A stretch of DNA of 24,862 nt from a virus. The translations under genes and the position numbers were made by a program. The DNA lies in the IMG/VR virus record IMGVR_UViG_3300030419_007939, positions 1 to 24,862 of that record; one strand, given 5' to 3'. Below the pieces are notes generated by a model. The model saw only the letters and a program-made list of their open reading frames with translations, was not told the origin of the DNA and did not search any database. This document shows positions 7,893 through 24,131 of the stretch, in pieces (the stretch's first letter is position 1; each line of letters opens with the position of its first letter).

Positions 7893-8441
7893 ATGCCAAA
7901 GCAACCTGACAATATCCCACAGTGGCAATCAATGAATATTGAGCCAAAACGGAAATTTAAATTTATTTTGCGCCTAGGCGGCGTACCAGCTTGGGTGATT
8001 AAAAGCGTTACGCGCCCACAAATTACCGTTTCAGACGGTGCCAAGCATCAATTCTTAGCGCATGAATTTAAATTCCCCGGCAGAGTCACTTGGAATGATA
8101 TTGAGATTACATTAGTTGATCCAATTAATCCTGAAATTGCTGCAACTGTTTTTAAAGTTATTGAGGACTCTGGATATGCGCTGCCAAGCGATTGGAACGG
8201 ACAGAATGAGTCGTGGCGCTTGAGCATGTCAAAGAGGAAAGCTGCTGGCAACGCACTGACGGATGTAACAATTCAAACAATCGATTCTGATGGCAAAAAG
8301 GTAGAAGAATGGCGATTGTACAATGCGTGGATTAAAAACATTAACTATGATGATGTTTCGTATGACAGCGAAGATTTAATGAGCATTACAGTTGGCTTAG
8401 CGTATGATTGGGCTAAGCTTGAATCGTTTGTAGCTGGTTAA
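7893..8441 (+). CDS. Tail tube protein, T4 gp19-like (copy 1)
   Basis: A 182-residue major tail tube protein, near T4 gp19 (163). It forms stacked hexameric rings inside the sheath and is the channel for DNA. Seen in the sequence: a KRKFKFILRLGG strand near residue 19, a KFPGRVTWNDIEITLVDP block near 60-77, and the typical ending where EEWRLYNAWIKNI is followed by a YDDVSYDSEDL turn and a GLAYDWAKLESF strand. Position directly after the sheath gene matches the gp18-gp19 order of T4. The next gene is a clear paralogue. Confidence 0.92.
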   Translation: MPKQPDNIPQWQSMNIEPKRKFKFILRLGGVPAWVIKSVTRPQITVSDGAKHQFLAHEFKFPGRVTWNDIEITLVDPINPEIAATVFKVIEDSGYALPSDWNGQNESWRLSMSKRKAAGNALTDVTIQTIDSDGKKVEEWRLYNAWIKNINYDDVSYDSEDLMSITVGLAYDWAKLESFVAG

Positions 8442-8445
8442 ATTT

Positions 8446-9063
8446 ATGGCTAAATCCATTGTTAATGAAATTAACAGAAGAATATTTGCTTCAAGATGTG
8501 TTGGTGCTAATGCACCGGCGCCTTCTTGGGCTAAAATGACAAAAGACGCTCAACAATCTTTCAGATTTCTTTTGATTGTGGGCGGATTTCACCCAATTTA
8601 TATAAGCCAAGTCAGTCGCCCGGGCTATTCGGTAGAAACTGAACAACATCGGCTTTTAAACTGGCACTTTCACTACCCAACCAACGTTAAATGGGATGAT
8701 GTGACCTTTACAGTAAAAGAAGTTTACAGCCACTCCAATGCGGATACTTTTATGAAAAAACTCAGGGGCTGTGCGTGGGCTTTGCCGGATGATTCAGACA
8801 ATGAAAGGTTAACTGAAAATGACATTAGCAAAGAGGCGTTGGTTAATTCTTTGGGTCCAGTAAAAATTCAAAGTATTAGGCCAGATAGTACTATTCATGA
8901 AGAATGGACGCTAGAGGGAGCTTTTATAAAGGGCGTAAAATTTAGTGAATTAAATTATGCAAATGAGGATATAACTTCTGCTCAAGTTACGCTATCATAT
9001 GATTGGGCAAAGCTTAAAGTTTTTTCCAAAACAGACGATAATACAGTATCCGTTAATTATTAG
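8446..9063 (+). CDS. Second gp19-type tail tube protein (tube paralogue)
   Basis: A 205-residue paralogue of the preceding tube protein. The blocks line up: QQSFRFLLIVGG with KRKFKFILRLGG, PTNVKWDDVTFTV with PGRVTWNDIEITL, EEWTLEGAFIKGV with EEWRLYNAWIKNI, and LSYDWAKLKVF with LAYDWAKLESF. It differs by a ~25-residue N-terminal extension and a short C-terminal tail. It starts 4 bp after the copy 1 stop with no clear ribosome site, so it is probably translated by coupling and at a lower level. Likely roles are a specialised ring at one end of the tube (initiator or terminator, in the manner of T4 gp54 or gp3) or a minor tube subunit. Which one cannot be decided from sequence. Confidence 0.88.
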   Translation: MAKSIVNEINRRIFASRCVGANAPAPSWAKMTKDAQQSFRFLLIVGGFHPIYISQVSRPGYSVETEQHRLLNWHFHYPTNVKWDDVTFTVKEVYSHSNADTFMKKLRGCAWALPDDSDNERLTENDISKEALVNSLGPVKIQSIRPDSTIHEEWTLEGAFIKGVKFSELNYANEDITSAQVTLSYDWAKLKVFSKTDDNTVSVNY

Positions 9064-9071
9064 AGGCGAGG

Positions 9072-9884
9072 ATGAGAGATCGAAACGAAAGTAAAATAAA
9101 TTACCAACCTACACCGCAATCACACTACGCATACACACCACCAACAGACATTGTTCACTTCCCATCAGGGGGAAAGTTTTATCCAGAGGGGCACCCCCTT
9201 CATGGAAAAGAGTCTGTTGAAGTGTATTTTATGACGACAAAAGAAGAAGACATTTTGGTTAATGCGGCATACAACAAAGAAGGCATAGTTTATGATAAAT
9301 TAATTGAAAGTATACTTGTTGATAAAACTATTGATGTATCTTCTTTTTTGATAGGCGACAAAAATGCAATATTAATTAATGCAAGAAAAAATGCATATGG
9401 TCCAGATTATGAAGTAAGAATATCTTGTGAAGAGTGTTATTCTAACAATGAAATCAGCATTGATTTAAATGAGGTTGGCAATAAAGATGTAGACTATTCT
9501 AATGTTGAGACAACTTCGCAAGGCACTTTTCTTTTAAAGTTGCCAAAATCTAATGTAACGGCTGAACTGAGGCTTCTTGATGGTCAAGACGAAAAAGAAA
9601 TGGCGAATGAGGCTGTACAGCGAGCTAAACACAATTTACCAGAAGAAACAGTCACGGGAAGATATTCGCGAATGGTTCGTTCTATAAATGGAAACACAGA
9701 TCCAATTTATATTAAAAGTTTTATTTCTAATATGCCGATTATGGATTCTAGACTTTTTCGAAAAACCTATTTGAATATAATGCCGGATATTGATTTTATG
9801 TATAAATTTTCTTGTCAAGAATGCGGTCACGTCAACAAGGGAGGTGTGCCCCTGACGGGCAACTTTTTTTGGCCTGACGAGTAA
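9072..9884 (+). CDS. Baseplate hub assembly protein, T4 gp26-like (T4_baseplate family)
   Basis: A 270-residue protein of the family that includes T4 gp26. Hallmarks near the N-terminus are FPSGGKFYPEGHPLHG (31-46), then a strand and TTKEEDILVNAAY (54-67), followed by the YDKLIESILVD and GDKNAILINARKNAYG segments. Two CxxC pairs, C119/C122 and C248/C251, suggest a zinc ribbon. T4 gp26 is about 208 residues. In T4 it is needed for hub assembly; in other tailed phages the equivalent position (between tube and tape-measure genes) is held by tail assembly chaperones. It starts 8 bp after the tube paralogue with a good AGAGGCGAGG site. A T7 run at 9864-9870, just before the stop, may allow frameshifting into the next gene. 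Confidence 0.82.
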   Translation: MRDRNESKINYQPTPQSHYAYTPPTDIVHFPSGGKFYPEGHPLHGKESVEVYFMTTKEEDILVNAAYNKEGIVYDKLIESILVDKTIDVSSFLIGDKNAILINARKNAYGPDYEVRISCEECYSNNEISIDLNEVGNKDVDYSNVETTSQGTFLLKLPKSNVTAELRLLDGQDEKEMANEAVQRAKHNLPEETVTGRYSRMVRSINGNTDPIYIKSFISNMPIMDSRLFRKTYLNIMPDIDFMYKFSCQECGHVNKGGVPLTGNFFWPDE

Positions 9885-9888
9885 CTAT

Positions 9889-10044
9889 ATGGATGGCGTC
9901 TACGAGACGTTGTTTATATTAAAAATGCATGGTAATTGGAATTTTTTTGAAGCTTTTGCTCTTCCTATTAGTTTAAGAAACTGGTTTGCGCGCAAATTAG
10001 CAAATCATCTAAAAGAAATAAACGAAGCCCGCACAAAGAAATAA
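9889..10044 (+). CDS. Small tail-assembly protein (possible chaperone partner of the gp26-like protein)
   Basis: A 51-residue ORF from ATG 9889 to TAA 10042-10044. It has a hydrophobic N-terminal helix, a WNFFEAFALPISLRNWF core at residues 17-33 and a basic C-terminus. Small proteins with an E-A-x-x-LP-I-x-x-R-x-W pattern often follow gp26-type genes in myoviruses. Its place between the gp26-like gene and the tape measure is that of the second tail chaperone (GT in lambda). There is no clear Shine-Dalgarno and only 4 bp after the upstream stop, so it relies on coupling or on a frameshift: its frame is open upstream back to 9856, covering the T7 run in the previous gene. Confidence 0.7.
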   Translation: MDGVYETLFILKMHGNWNFFEAFALPISLRNWFARKLANHLKEINEARTKK

Positions 10045-10078: not shown

Positions 10079-11512
10079 ATGGCTGTCGATTCTGCTAAAT
10101 TACGCGCTTTAATACGAAATGTCTCCACCGGCAAGGCTAAGGCCGGTGAAGCAAGAACGATGATTAACGGCATGCCCCCCGGGACAGAAAAAGATATGGC
10201 AAAAATTGCCTTAAAGGCCGCAGAGGCCGCGGCCAAATCACCGGCTGCAGGTGCCGGTCTGGGCAGCATGATTCCCGATTTGGCCCAAGAGCGCTTAAAT
10301 AAGGCTATGACTGGCAAACTTGGAACAACAGTAAAGAAGTACGAAAAATTTACTACGCAAATTCAACTTTTGAGCGCCGAATCGGCCAAGGGCGCAGGAC
10401 AAATAACACAGAAGCTACAACTCCTTCAACGCCGTCAGACACAAATGGGTATTTCGATGACGGACACCATGAAGGCCGTACAAAATGCTATGCAACAATA
10501 CGCTGGTGTTGTAACTCCAGCTTGGGAAAACGATTTTGAGGCCGTTACAAAACAAATTTCCGTATATGAAAAACTGGGTATTAGTGCTAACGACAGCATC
10601 ACACTTTTTAACACTTTTGGCGCTGTTTTAGGAAAATCCAGAGCGGAAGTTACTAAAACTTCTCAAACTTTAAATAAATTTGCTCAAACAACTGGTCAAA
10701 GCTATGCACAAGTTTGGCGAGATTTTAATGCAAACCAAGCTCAATTCATGGACATCCTTGATAGCAAGGACATGACAAGGCAAACACTCCTGTTTCAAGT
10801 TAGAGCAAGAAGAATGGGCCTCAGTGTCGGCACCATGATGAGCAATTTGCAACAATTTGAAACTTTAGATGGCGCGCAAGCAGCCGCAGGTAAAATTAAT
10901 GCGGTCATGGGCAGCTTGGGCGGCAGTTTTGATGCAGTTAAGGCCGCATCTATGGATTATCCAGAGCGAATGGAGTATATTGCCAAGTCAATTCAAAGTG
11001 TAATGGGTAGAATTCAACAATCTGGACCAAGAGCCAGCCGTGCCTACATGAAAGCCATGGGCGATGCGTTTGGTATGGATTCTAGAACACTCAGAGCTAT
11101 GATATCTTATAGGCCGGGTGCTGCTTTGCCGGCAGAGCTTAAAGCGGCCGGCGGCATGTTGGGTGCGATGACTTCTGCACAAACGGCCGCTGCAGCACGA
11201 GAAGCCTCAACCGTACAACAGCGCTTGGATGCCATGAAAGATCTTCAGGAACATATAGCACTGGAAACAATTCCAAATATGGGCAAGAAAACCTCCGTTG
11301 AGATCGTCAACGCGTTGGCTCAATCTGCCAGCAGAATAGATAAGCTTCTTGCCAACGCCGCCATGTCTGCTACTCAGAAAGCCGGGACTGCATTCGCGAA
11401 CAAAGCTTTAGAAGTCTTTAAAGGCGGGGTGACGGCCGCGGATGTAATGTCAGTAAACAGCGCTTACAAGGCGATGGCAGATTTTCAGAAAAAACATCTG
11501 GGGAGTACATAA
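10079..11512 (+). CDS. Probable tail tape measure protein (T4 gp29 role)
   Basis: A 477-residue, almost entirely helical protein rich in Ala, Lys, Gln and Met. Residues ~255-300 contain QQFETLDGAQAAAGKINAV followed by MGSLGGSF, a pattern I recognise from tape-measure proteins of marine phages, where an aromatic-E-x-x-x-x-A-Q-x-A-A-x-x-I-N-A motif is typical. Position right after the gp26-like and small chaperone genes supports the role. Tape measures set tail length and leave the tube with the DNA. At about 0.15 nm per residue it would span roughly 70 nm, shorter than in T4, where gp29 has 590 residues; this is a rough inference. No transmembrane segment or lytic domain is evident. AGAGGAGAG precedes the ATG. 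It overlaps the next gene by 1 bp (TAATG). Confidence 0.7.
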   Translation: MAVDSAKLRALIRNVSTGKAKAGEARTMINGMPPGTEKDMAKIALKAAEAAAKSPAAGAGLGSMIPDLAQERLNKAMTGKLGTTVKKYEKFTTQIQLLSAESAKGAGQITQKLQLLQRRQTQMGISMTDTMKAVQNAMQQYAGVVTPAWENDFEAVTKQISVYEKLGISANDSITLFNTFGAVLGKSRAEVTKTSQTLNKFAQTTGQSYAQVWRDFNANQAQFMDILDSKDMTRQTLLFQVRARRMGLSVGTMMSNLQQFETLDGAQAAAGKINAVMGSLGGSFDAVKAASMDYPERMEYIAKSIQSVMGRIQQSGPRASRAYMKAMGDAFGMDSRTLRAMISYRPGAALPAELKAAGGMLGAMTSAQTAAAAREASTVQQRLDAMKDLQEHIALETIPNMGKKTSVEIVNALAQSASRIDKLLANAAMSATQKAGTAFANKALEVFKGGVTAADVMSVNSAYKAMADFQKKHLGST

Positions 11513-17619: not shown

Positions 17620-18801
17620 GTGATTTTTCAAACATTAGACAACAAAGACAAATGTAACAAAATATATGCTGATGGCGCAATTCGTACAAAGTTTTTACCG
17701 GATTTGCGCGGCACTTGGGAATATAAAAAGGGCCTGCCGCTTGATGTTGAGTTTGCGAAACTATATTGTAGCGGGGCATCAATAGAACGCGTATGTCCAG
17801 AGCGGCTAAGAGTACAGTGGTCCGCGTCAAGTGAGCGCCTCAAGGCGTATTTGAATTCTTTTATACAAGCTAAAATTTCTTTAAAAGAGCATTGCTTTTA
17901 TGACCTAGTTCCAGAGCATTTTCTTTTAAATTTTTATGAAGTTAAAAACCAAGTAACAGAACATGTCTTGAACAACTATGAAAAACCTGAAAATTACGAT
18001 TTTTTATTGCAATTATCAGAAGTGGTTGAGGATATAAAAAGTCGCCCATTGAATTTAAAATATCAAAAATTAAATTTATTATGCCATCAGATTGCAGCTA
18101 GAAATTTTTTGAAGCGAATTAAAAAAGCTGAAAAGCGAATTAAATACAATATTTTTGGCACAAAAACAGGCAGATTGACGACAGAACCAAAATCTTTTCC
18201 TATTTTGACATTAAAAAAAGAGTATCGTACTATTTTAGAACCAAATAATGATTTATATGTGGAATTGGATTTCAATGCTGCTGAATTAAGGACATTATTA
18301 TCTTTGATGGACAAGAAGCAGCCGAAAGAAGATATACACGAATGGAATGCGAAGAACGTGTTTCAAGGAATACGAAGAAAGGACGCTAAAGAGCGAATAT
18401 TCGCTTGGCTATATAATCCAGATTCTAAAGATCGTTTAGCAAATGGAACTTATGACAAAAAGCAGGTGAAAGAAAAATATTGGGATGGTAAAATAGTGAA
18501 AACGCCTTTTGGCAGAGAGATAGAGGCGGATGATTTTCACGCTTTGAATTATTTAGTTCAGAGCACAACAGCAGATGTTGTTTTGAGACAAGCAATAAAA
18601 GTTTATCAACTACTTAAAGAACGTAAATCACACATGGCATTTATTGTGCATGATTCATTAGTTATTGATTTGGCCAAAGAGGACAAAGTAATCTTAGATG
18701 AGTTGTTTGACGTTTTTTCAAAAACTGATTTGGGAGAGTTTAAGATCACAGTTCATGCTGGTAAGAATTTTGGTGAAATGAAGGAAATAAAATGGAAGTA
18801 G
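17620..18801 (+). CDS. DNA polymerase, family A, polymerase domain only (compact)
   Basis: A 393-residue template-directed DNA polymerase of the Pol I/T7 family. Motif A is DFNAAELRTLL with D217. The O-helix keeps R253, K257, F261 and Y265 at exact four-residue spacing, as in E. coli R754/K758/F762/Y766, but reads YN where YG is usual. NYLVQSTTADVVLRQAI matches the NAPMQGTAADIIKRAMI region. Motif C is H344-D345-S346, with Ser replacing the usual Glu. The two catalytic Asp are only ~128 residues apart (177 in E. coli Pol I), so part of the fingers is missing. No 3'-5' exonuclease domain is seen; residues 1-150 are unassigned. The start is GTG 17620 with a weak ribosome site. It overlaps the next gene by 10 bp. 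T4 relatives use a family B enzyme, so this is unusual. Confidence 0.9.
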   Translation: MIFQTLDNKDKCNKIYADGAIRTKFLPDLRGTWEYKKGLPLDVEFAKLYCSGASIERVCPERLRVQWSASSERLKAYLNSFIQAKISLKEHCFYDLVPEHFLLNFYEVKNQVTEHVLNNYEKPENYDFLLQLSEVVEDIKSRPLNLKYQKLNLLCHQIAARNFLKRIKKAEKRIKYNIFGTKTGRLTTEPKSFPILTLKKEYRTILEPNNDLYVELDFNAAELRTLLSLMDKKQPKEDIHEWNAKNVFQGIRRKDAKERIFAWLYNPDSKDRLANGTYDKKQVKEKYWDGKIVKTPFGREIEADDFHALNYLVQSTTADVVLRQAIKVYQLLKERKSHMAFIVHDSLVIDLAKEDKVILDELFDVFSKTDLGEFKITVHAGKNFGEMKEIKWK

Positions 18802-23112: not shown

Positions 23113-23218
23113 CCTAGAGGGACCAAAGGAGTGTAGCGAGTGCGGCTGCAATCTTTGGCCGTGTTGTAGAAAAGGTAAAAAAAATGAAAAGAGTATTAAT
23201 TTTAGACGGAACAAATAA
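23105..23218 (+). CDS. Possible Cys-rich zinc-ribbon-like microprotein
   Basis: A GTG-start ORF of 37 codons overlapping the previous gene by 8 bp and the next by 35 bp. GGAGAG about five bases upstream is a fair ribosome site. Five Cys lie in twelve residues: C10, C13, C15, C20 and C21 (CSECGC then PCC), as in a small zinc knuckle. The last ~14 residues lie in the start region of the nuclease gene. It could be a real microprotein or chance; the clustering of Cys and the spacing argue for it. Confidence 0.45.
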   Translation: MINLEGPKECSECGCNLWPCCRKGKKNEKSINFRRNK

Positions 23219-24131
23219 TTTTTATCGAGCGTTTGTCGTGGATCCAAGTATGAGTACCAACGGTAAGCCAATTGGCGGCGTCAAGGGCTTTTTGAAGATT
23301 TTGCAAAAACTTGTTCGTGAAATGAAGCCAGATCAGGTTGTTATTTGTTGGGACGGCGCAGGTGGTTCACAGCGAAGACGACAAATGAATAAAAACTACA
23401 AGGAGGGTCGTAAAACTATTCGCCTTAATAGGAATAACAGTATGTTGACCCAAGAAGAGGAAATGGAAAACCGAGTGGATCAACAGATTCGGCTGGTAGA
23501 GTATATTAACCACATGCCTATCGCTCAGTTTTTGTTTGATAATGTTGAAGCAGATGATTTGATTTCTATTGCGAATCAAGAGTATAAGGGTTGGCAAAAG
23601 GTAATTGTCTCAAGTGACAAAGACTTCTTTCAGTTGCTTGACAATGAAACAATCCTTTATCGGCCGATCCAAAAGAAGTTTTACAACAAAAAAACATTGG
23701 TTGAGGAATTTGGAATCCACCCAACTAACTTTGCCTTGGCTAGGGCTGTCGCTGGTGATAAGAGTGATAATCTACCCGGGGTACCGGGAGCAGGGCTTCC
23801 AACGGTTGCTAAAAGATTCCCATATCTTGCGGAGGAGAAGGATTACACAACTGGCGATCTTGTAAGCACTTGTTTACACGAAGAAAAACCACTTAAAGTT
23901 CATGAGCGGATCATTGAAAATGAAAAACTCATTAAGGAAAATTACAAAATCATGCAGTTGTACAACCCGCTGGTTTCGCCTCAAAACAGAGATAAAATTA
24001 AACAAGTGATTAGTAACTATCCGAAATCTTTCAGCAAAACTGAGATTCGGAAGATGATGACAATTGACGGCTTTCCAGAACTAAGTTGGCATGATTTATT
24101 CGCAGCATTTAATAGAATGACATTGACATAA
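23184..24131 (+). CDS. rnh: 5'-3' exonuclease / RNase H, FEN-type (T4 rnh role)
   Basis: A 315-residue flap/5'-nuclease, near T4 RNase H (305), that removes RNA primers from Okazaki fragments. The metal-binding acids are visible: D8 in LILDGTNNFYR, D57 in VVICWDGAGG, E122/D124/D125 in EADDLIS, D145/D147 in VSSDKDFFQLL, and D192/D195 in GDKSDNLPGVPG, which also starts the helix-3-turn-helix DNA-binding motif. The sequence reads closer to the 5'-nuclease domain of bacterial Pol I than to T4 RNase H. With the separate polymerase gene at 17620 it makes a two-gene equivalent of the outer domains of Pol I. It has an AAAGGT site before ATG 23184 and ends at a strong promoter for the helicase. Confidence 0.92.
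   Translation: MKRVLILDGTNNFYRAFVVDPSMSTNGKPIGGVKGFLKILQKLVREMKPDQVVICWDGAGGSQRRRQMNKNYKEGRKTIRLNRNNSMLTQEEEMENRVDQQIRLVEYINHMPIAQFLFDNVEADDLISIANQEYKGWQKVIVSSDKDFFQLLDNETILYRPIQKKFYNKKTLVEEFGIHPTNFALARAVAGDKSDNLPGVPGAGLPTVAKRFPYLAEEKDYTTGDLVSTCLHEEKPLKVHERIIENEKLIKENYKIMQLYNPLVSPQNRDKIKQVISNYPKSFSKTEIRKMMTIDGFPELSWHDLFAAFNRMTLT

Follow-up and report, generated by a model that had tools for sequence, protein, structure and literature searches.

A probable +1 frameshift yields a short and a long tail assembly chaperone from one gp26-like gene in a metagenomic virus and its relatives

Introduction

Tail assembly chaperones (TACs) that are produced by frameshifting usually employ a -1 shift. Here, we examine a gp26-like gene and the reading frame overlapping its 3' end in the IMG/VR virus record IMGVR_UViG_3300030419_007939, of which the whole stretch from position 1 to 24,862 was analysed (24,862 nt, hereafter the window), and we argue that the two probably encode a short and a long chaperone by way of a +1 shift. 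For T4-like phages, the TAC genes have reportedly been identified already and are said, going by the title of a 2022 work of Vladimirov, Gautam and Davidson (doi 10.1016/j.virol.2021.11.003), to be made by a mechanism other than frameshifting.

In lambda, gpG and gpGT form a TAC pair generated by a -1 frameshift, in which the short protein coats the tape measure and the long one recruits tail tube subunits (PMC5009743). SPP1 makes gp17.5 and gp17.5* by a -1 shift at UUUUUUC (PMC6316719). The TAC of Vandenendeviridae and Andersonviridae involves a -1 shift at GTTTTT, and poly-T -1 signals in TACs of T4-like phages are mentioned in the same source (PMC12846349). For T4-like TACs, the PRFect paper reports a short gene together with a longer, fused one (PMC10885494). 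A +1 TAC has been predicted in the haloarchaeal myovirus HSTV-2 (PMC5009743).

Like lambda gpG/gpGT and SPP1 gp17.5/17.5*, a single gene of the window, 5' of the putative tape measure gene, would supply both a short and a long chaperone; in lambda and SPP1, however, the shift is -1 and occurs at other sites, whereas that of the window is predicted to be +1. As in the Vandenendeviridae and Andersonviridae, the TAC gene of a myovirus ends in a poly-T site and the open frame is invariant; the direction again differs (-1 there, +1 here). With the CUU_UGA site of release factor 2 (RF2, prfB) it would share the +1 re-pairing of YTT to TTT, and two sites in the window's family read exactly CTT_TGG. 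Unlike in prfB, the A site of the family holds a Trp (or Tyr or Arg) codon instead of a stop, and there is no Shine-Dalgarno (SD) sequence 3 nt upstream.

Results and discussion

Frame layout and proposed mechanism

We estimate at roughly 90% the probability that the gp26-like gene and the shifted domain behind it constitute a TAC short/long pair expressed from one gene via a +1 shift. The gene (9072..9884, + strand) encodes a protein of 270 aa, corresponding to the short form (TAC-N or G-like), which matches PF12322 (T4_baseplate) in a profile search with 54.1 bits against a curated cut-off of 24.5, and phrog_150 ('baseplate hub') with E 1.5e-15. Its 3' end reads AAC TTT TTT TGG CCT GAC GAG TAA, the 0-frame codons being AAC at 9861-9863, TTT at 9864-9866 and again at 9867-9869, TGG at 9870-9872, CCT at 9873-9875, then GAC, GAG and the stop TAA at 9882-9884.

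The first-pass annotation had described the +1 frame as open from 9856 straight into a small open reading frame (ORF), and this is what we observe: following a TGA at 9853-9855, the frame is open over 9856-10041 and stops at 10042-10044 (9856..10044, + strand; translation RATFFGLTSNYMDGVYETLFILKMHGNWNFFEAFALPISLRNWFARKLANHLKEINEARTKK). The C-terminal (T-like) domain, GLTSNYMDGVYETLF..., would be read from 9871 to give a long form of 323 aa. The seven-T run that had been placed in the overlap of the two frames, 9856-9884, lies at 9864-9870. The -1 frame has stops 4 nt 5' and 38 nt 3' of the gp26 stop, and the window does not present a -1 frameshift of the X XXY YYZ type. Only one PF12322 match was found in the 24.9-kb record, which holds no long PF12322 paralogue carrying the C-terminal extension as a gene of its own; the extension is found in the +1 frame instead.

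We infer the occurrence of the shift, its efficiency and its role in tail assembly, and propose the following route. Most ribosomes would stop at TAA 9882, giving the 270-aa short form, while a fraction would pause at the core TTT TTT TGG (9864..9872, + strand) when the P site holds TTT and the A site TGG. There, peptidyl-tRNA-Phe could slip by +1 from TTT to the overlapping TTT, so that one T of 9864-9870 is skipped, and reading through the stop would produce the 323-aa long form, ...GNFF-GLTSNYMDGVYETLFILKMHGNWNFFEAFALPISLRNWF.... By analogy with lambda gpG, the short form might coat the tape measure protein, and by analogy with gpGT, the added domain of the long form might recruit tail tube subunits.

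Conservation of the layout among relatives

A profile scan returned at least 594 relatives, of which 80 were kept; with 20 more from a further seed, 92 distinct loci were compared, and a frame was counted as open when it extended at least 140 nt beyond the gp26 stop. The +1 layout is not a product of chance: the +1 frame is open past the stop in 83 of the 92 distinct relatives (the -1 frame in seven) and, after thinning to 37 representatives with identities below 60%, in 36 (the -1 frame in two), against about 2% expected (2.1% after shuffling). Among relatives on GTDB contigs that reach a stop, all 16 distinct loci (17 rows, two of them identical) have the +1 layout.

The closest relatives in IMG/VR, L001 and L002, have 71% protein identity and carry ACTTTTTTTGGCCTGACGAGT unchanged letter for letter; in isolate phages, at 25-34% identity, the bases differ but the layout persists. 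The slip site reads AAC TTT TTT TGG CCT in Microcystis phage Mel-JY01, AGC TTT CTT TGG CCT in Flavobacterium phage immuto, AAC TTT CTA TTC in LR756508, GAA TTC TTT CGT in Streptococcus phage GXN1, GAA TTT TTT CAC in Bacillus phage SP-15 and GAG TTT TTT AGT in Listeria phage LIS04. In a tblastn search, the +1 peptide of the window hit the corresponding position of Mel-JY01 (E 3e-3); the match in immuto was below significance (E 0.9). Loss of the T-run or of the frame overlap in related genomes, which the first-pass annotation had named as a possible refutation, was seen in a few lineages only (L106/L111 and L039/L042, considered below).

The shifted domain and the possibility of separate translation

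One conserved domain occupies the +1 frame throughout, with a consensus of about GLTPEYK..IHEEIFQL.YYGKGGFTF.EVYNMPVYLR.FYLKKL, in which Gly267-Leu268, Y295, P298 and R302 are near-invariant across 40 fusions. Before domain residue 25, ATG is absent in 52 of 83 loci and ATG, GTG and TTG are all absent in 38; in these genomes the conserved part cannot arise by independent initiation. The diverse set agrees (13 of 37 relatives without ATG, GTG or TTG before this residue), and L034 and L059 have no start codon of any kind. Given this lack of a start codon in many relatives, a frameshift is the only evident route to the domain in them.

These observations bear on the alternative that fares best, although we consider it improbable: that two separate proteins are made, with translation of the 51-residue ORF (9889..10044, + strand) starting at ATG 9889, through re-initiation or coupling once the gp26 stop is reached. 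The ATG does lie 5 nt past the TAA of the window, and in L106 and L111 an ATG follows the stop closely and a usable slip site is lacking. However, in addition to the many relatives without a start codon, the slip, rather than the ATG, marks the start of the conserved GL(T/S/P) of the domain, and separate translation leaves the exclusive use of TTT over TTC at the slip site (see below) unexplained. The ribosome site at ATG 9889 is also poor, in line with the earlier remark that the small ORF has no clear one: the ATG is preceded by GGCCTGACGAGTAACTAT, compared with AGAGGCGAGG and AGAGGAGAG at the flanking genes, and sits within a predicted 15-bp hairpin at 9887-9919 (z -2.5 for 9878-9940). We read the 51-residue ORF, which had no match in Pfam or PHROGs, as the 3' part of the long form rather than as a separate gene.

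Gene callers misannotate this 3' part as a tiny hypothetical gene (Mel-JY01, immuto, SP-15) or miss it (LIS04, GXN1). With E 0.014, the C-terminal domain of L034 matches phrog_20255, a 63-aa family of unknown function whose members are probably 3' pieces of frameshifted chaperones that were misannotated.

Slip site and direction of the shift

Over the 83 relatives, the P-site codon is TTT in 81, CTT in two and TTC in none, yet TTC accounts for 22% of Phe codons in these genes, a pattern indicating that codon choice at this position tracks the slip and not the amino acid. The preceding codon is TTT, TTC, GAC or GCT, and the following hexamer is TGGCCT in 72 of 83 and TACCCT in five. A YTT_T core is found in the P site at all 83 aligned loci. 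The minimal core is (T/C)TT followed by T (or C), of which the seven-T run is one version, and several relatives without the run keep the +1 layout. The first-pass annotation had called the T-run ideal for slipping; a slip at this place is supported, whereas the run itself is not retained in every relative.

The variation in run length also speaks to a second alternative, namely transcriptional slippage, in which RNA polymerase would drop one U from the seven-T run (or add two) and generate mRNAs in the +1 frame. A hairpin followed by seven T resembles a weak terminator, and the seven-T run is kept in most relatives. RNA polymerase slippage is, however, not expected on runs as short as three to five T, and the layout persists in relatives with runs of this length (TTCTTTTGG, TTTCTTTGG, GCTTTTTGG), evidence against transcriptional slippage, to which we assign a small probability.

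A -2 frameshift of the Mu-like type, which the first-pass annotation had offered beside +1, appears very unlikely. In the window and at other seven-T sites, the P-site TTT could pair two bases back, but -2 re-pairing of the Mu type fails in relatives with TTC TTT TGG (11 of 83), TTT CTT TGG or GCT TTT TGG, where mispairing (TCT, TTC on Leu tRNA, etc.) would be needed, and L009 (TTC TTT CGT) and L008 (AAC TTT CTA) would also mispair at -2 yet keep the +1 layout. Re-pairing at +1, by contrast, is perfect in the relatives (TTT and CTT move onto TTT, or onto TTC if the next base is C). Because those unable to re-pair at -2 all re-pair at +1, as TTT or TTC, codon-anticodon rules predict that the shift is +1 and not -2. 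Of the original proposal, the joining of the two frames and the +1 direction are supported by comparative evidence, and the -2 option is not. That a sequencing or assembly error in the seven-T homopolymer of a metagenomic virus record split one gene is negligible, as the same split occurs in the isolate genomes of Mel-JY01, immuto, SP-15 and LIS04 and in more than 80 contigs, none with an in-frame fusion.

Possible stimulatory elements

A short G+C-rich hairpin, TGCCCCTGACGGGCA (9847..9861, + strand), lies just 5' of the slip core and is a possible, unproven stimulator of the +1 shift. Synonymous-site constraint on upstream hairpins was found in 24 of 52 relatives, compared with 16 of 52 in the adjacent interval and 2-7 of 52 in three intervals farther upstream. 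In addition, GGG is strongly over-used for Gly 12 nt 5' of the slip codon (15/27 vs. 59/787 elsewhere, p 4e-10, not corrected for descent), which suggests a stimulatory element. Short hairpins or G-rich codons 5' of the slip thus seem to be under selection at synonymous sites. The upstream hairpin remains a candidate only, because its wobble-wobble pair -19/-10 shows no significant covariation (p 0.27).

Two other kinds of stimulator were also considered. Known SD stimulators are spaced 3 nt (prfB) and about 10 nt (dnaX) from the slip, and the SD-like pairing peak ~22-30 nt 5' of the slip in the window's family is too far upstream for either geometry. Downstream structure is not a general feature: the hairpin of the window has a z of -2.5, but the mean z over relatives is -0.56.

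Relation to T4 gp26/gp51 and to phages with a -1 shift

The first-pass annotation had likened the pair to the G/GT tail chaperones, a parallel that comparative evidence strongly supports, and had added that T4 is not known to frameshift gp26, which holds, as T4 has gp26 and gp51 as separate genes. With the same PF12322 model, T4 gp26 (baseplate hub) scores 215 bits and gp51 (hub-assembly chaperone) 178 bits; the match in gp51 spans residues 1-201 of 249, with an extra C-terminus of about 48 aa beyond, and the end of T4 gp26 corresponds to the slip-site position of the window's family. T4 gp51 therefore looks like gp26 with a C-terminal chaperone domain added. Genes 26 and 51 of T4 (L015) stand back to back on opposite strands.

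The marine cyanophages P-SSM2 (L133) and S-PM2 (L134) have a single PF12322 gene ending in (AGT or TCT) TTT TTC GYA TAA, with a T_TTT_TTC -1 site immediately 5' of the gp26 stop; their -1 frame encodes a gp51-like domain. The domain is likewise in the -1 frame at T_TTT_TTC in the jumbo phages Atu_ph07 and PA5oct and in the LR756511 group, and at G_TTT_TTT_A in the jumbo phage RAS14. P-SSM2, S-PM2, Atu_ph07, PA5oct and RAS14 thus resemble the window in having one PF12322 gene with an out-of-frame C-terminal domain near its stop, and differ in that their domain is in the -1 frame and that of the window in the +1 frame. Profile alignment with hhalign provides a homology chain to gp51: the C-terminus of gp51 aligns with the cyanophage -1-frame domain at 97% (E 4e-11), which for its part pairs with the +1 domain at 81% (E 1.2e-5); for the +1 domain against the pooled -1 group, the values are 95% and E 4e-8.

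The window and T4 therefore share a protein family, in which the short form would correspond to gp26 and the long form to gp51, whose extension appears homologous to the shifted domain; in T4 and other Straboviridae there are two separate genes, whereas the window has one gene with a predicted +1 shift. The same short/long protein pair appears to have been reached by three genetic routes, i.e., two genes (gp26/gp51), a -1 shift and the +1 shift of the window's family, which supports T4 gp51 and gp26 as the long and short tail chaperones.

No relative of solved structure was found by sequence for the window protein. The window fusion was modelled with AlphaFold2, with TGGC read as G and an input alignment containing unchanged pieces of related loci; the model is confident at residues 21-110 and 270-323. 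The best matches of the N-domain model are the HK97 tail assembly chaperone gp13 (2ob9; Z 5.9, root-mean-square deviation 4.3, 85 aligned) and YqbN of B. subtilis (3klu; Z 5.2), a tail chaperone of the XkdN family; other structures, all unrelated, were at Z 2.6 or less.

A number of observations count against a +1-shifted chaperone pair. The window itself has the ATG at 9889. In L106 and L111 the slip core has been lost and the domain starts at an ATG of its own, separated from the stop by two bases (TAG AA ATG), which makes a separately translated domain possible in this lineage. L039 and L042 (one sequence) carry TTC TTC TGG with the domain in the -1 frame, where the direction of the shift has apparently changed. 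These exceptions show that the arrangement can change. In L011 (TTT TTT AGT), perfect re-pairing is available only from the first TTT. Aligned directly with gp51 alone, the +1 domain gives a weak hhalign result (3.5%, E 0.012). The AlphaFold2 model is poor in the middle (mean predicted local distance difference test score 66.8), and the fold match to HK97 and YqbN is middling, with Z below 8 over residues 12-111 only, a value that alone is no proof of a common fold.

Our literature search found no +1 shift described in this PF12322 family; it did not cover the 2022 work of Vladimirov and colleagues, so novelty is provisional. The TAC identity of the T4-like genes is already published, and what looks new is the +1 shift at YTT_TGG and the variety of +1, -1 and two-gene arrangements. 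At roughly even odds, many uncultured and cultured myoviruses use (T/C)TT_TGG_CCT as a +1 site of a new kind, in which the A site holds a sense codon (Trp) and GGG or a hairpin farther 5' acts as stimulator, and the T4-type chaperone would have switched repeatedly between +1, -1 and two genes while retaining the same two products. A deeply conserved +1 version in a T4-type family would offer a natural data set on +1 sites with a sense A-site codon, with 83 distinct relatives analysed here and at least 594 found.

Neighbouring genes

The gp26-like gene had been placed between tail tube and tape measure, and the order tail tube, gp26-like gene, tape measure is indeed found in the window, where the downstream gene is putative, and in annotated relatives (immuto, LIS04). 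Upstream are two tandem gp19-like tail tube genes at 7893-8441 and 8446-9063 (phrog_4542, E 5e-22 and 1e-14). The downstream gene (10079..11512, + strand; 477 aa) has only a weak match, to phrog_25979, and probably encodes the tape measure protein, judging from its position and from relatives in which the gene at this place is annotated as tail tape measure or tail protein; this protein is the presumed client of the chaperone. Elsewhere in the window, the catalytic part of a family A DNA polymerase (393 aa, 17620-18801) and a 5'-3' exonuclease (315 aa, 23184-24131) are encoded by separate genes, with ~4.4 kb between them that includes RecA-like and gp32-like genes.
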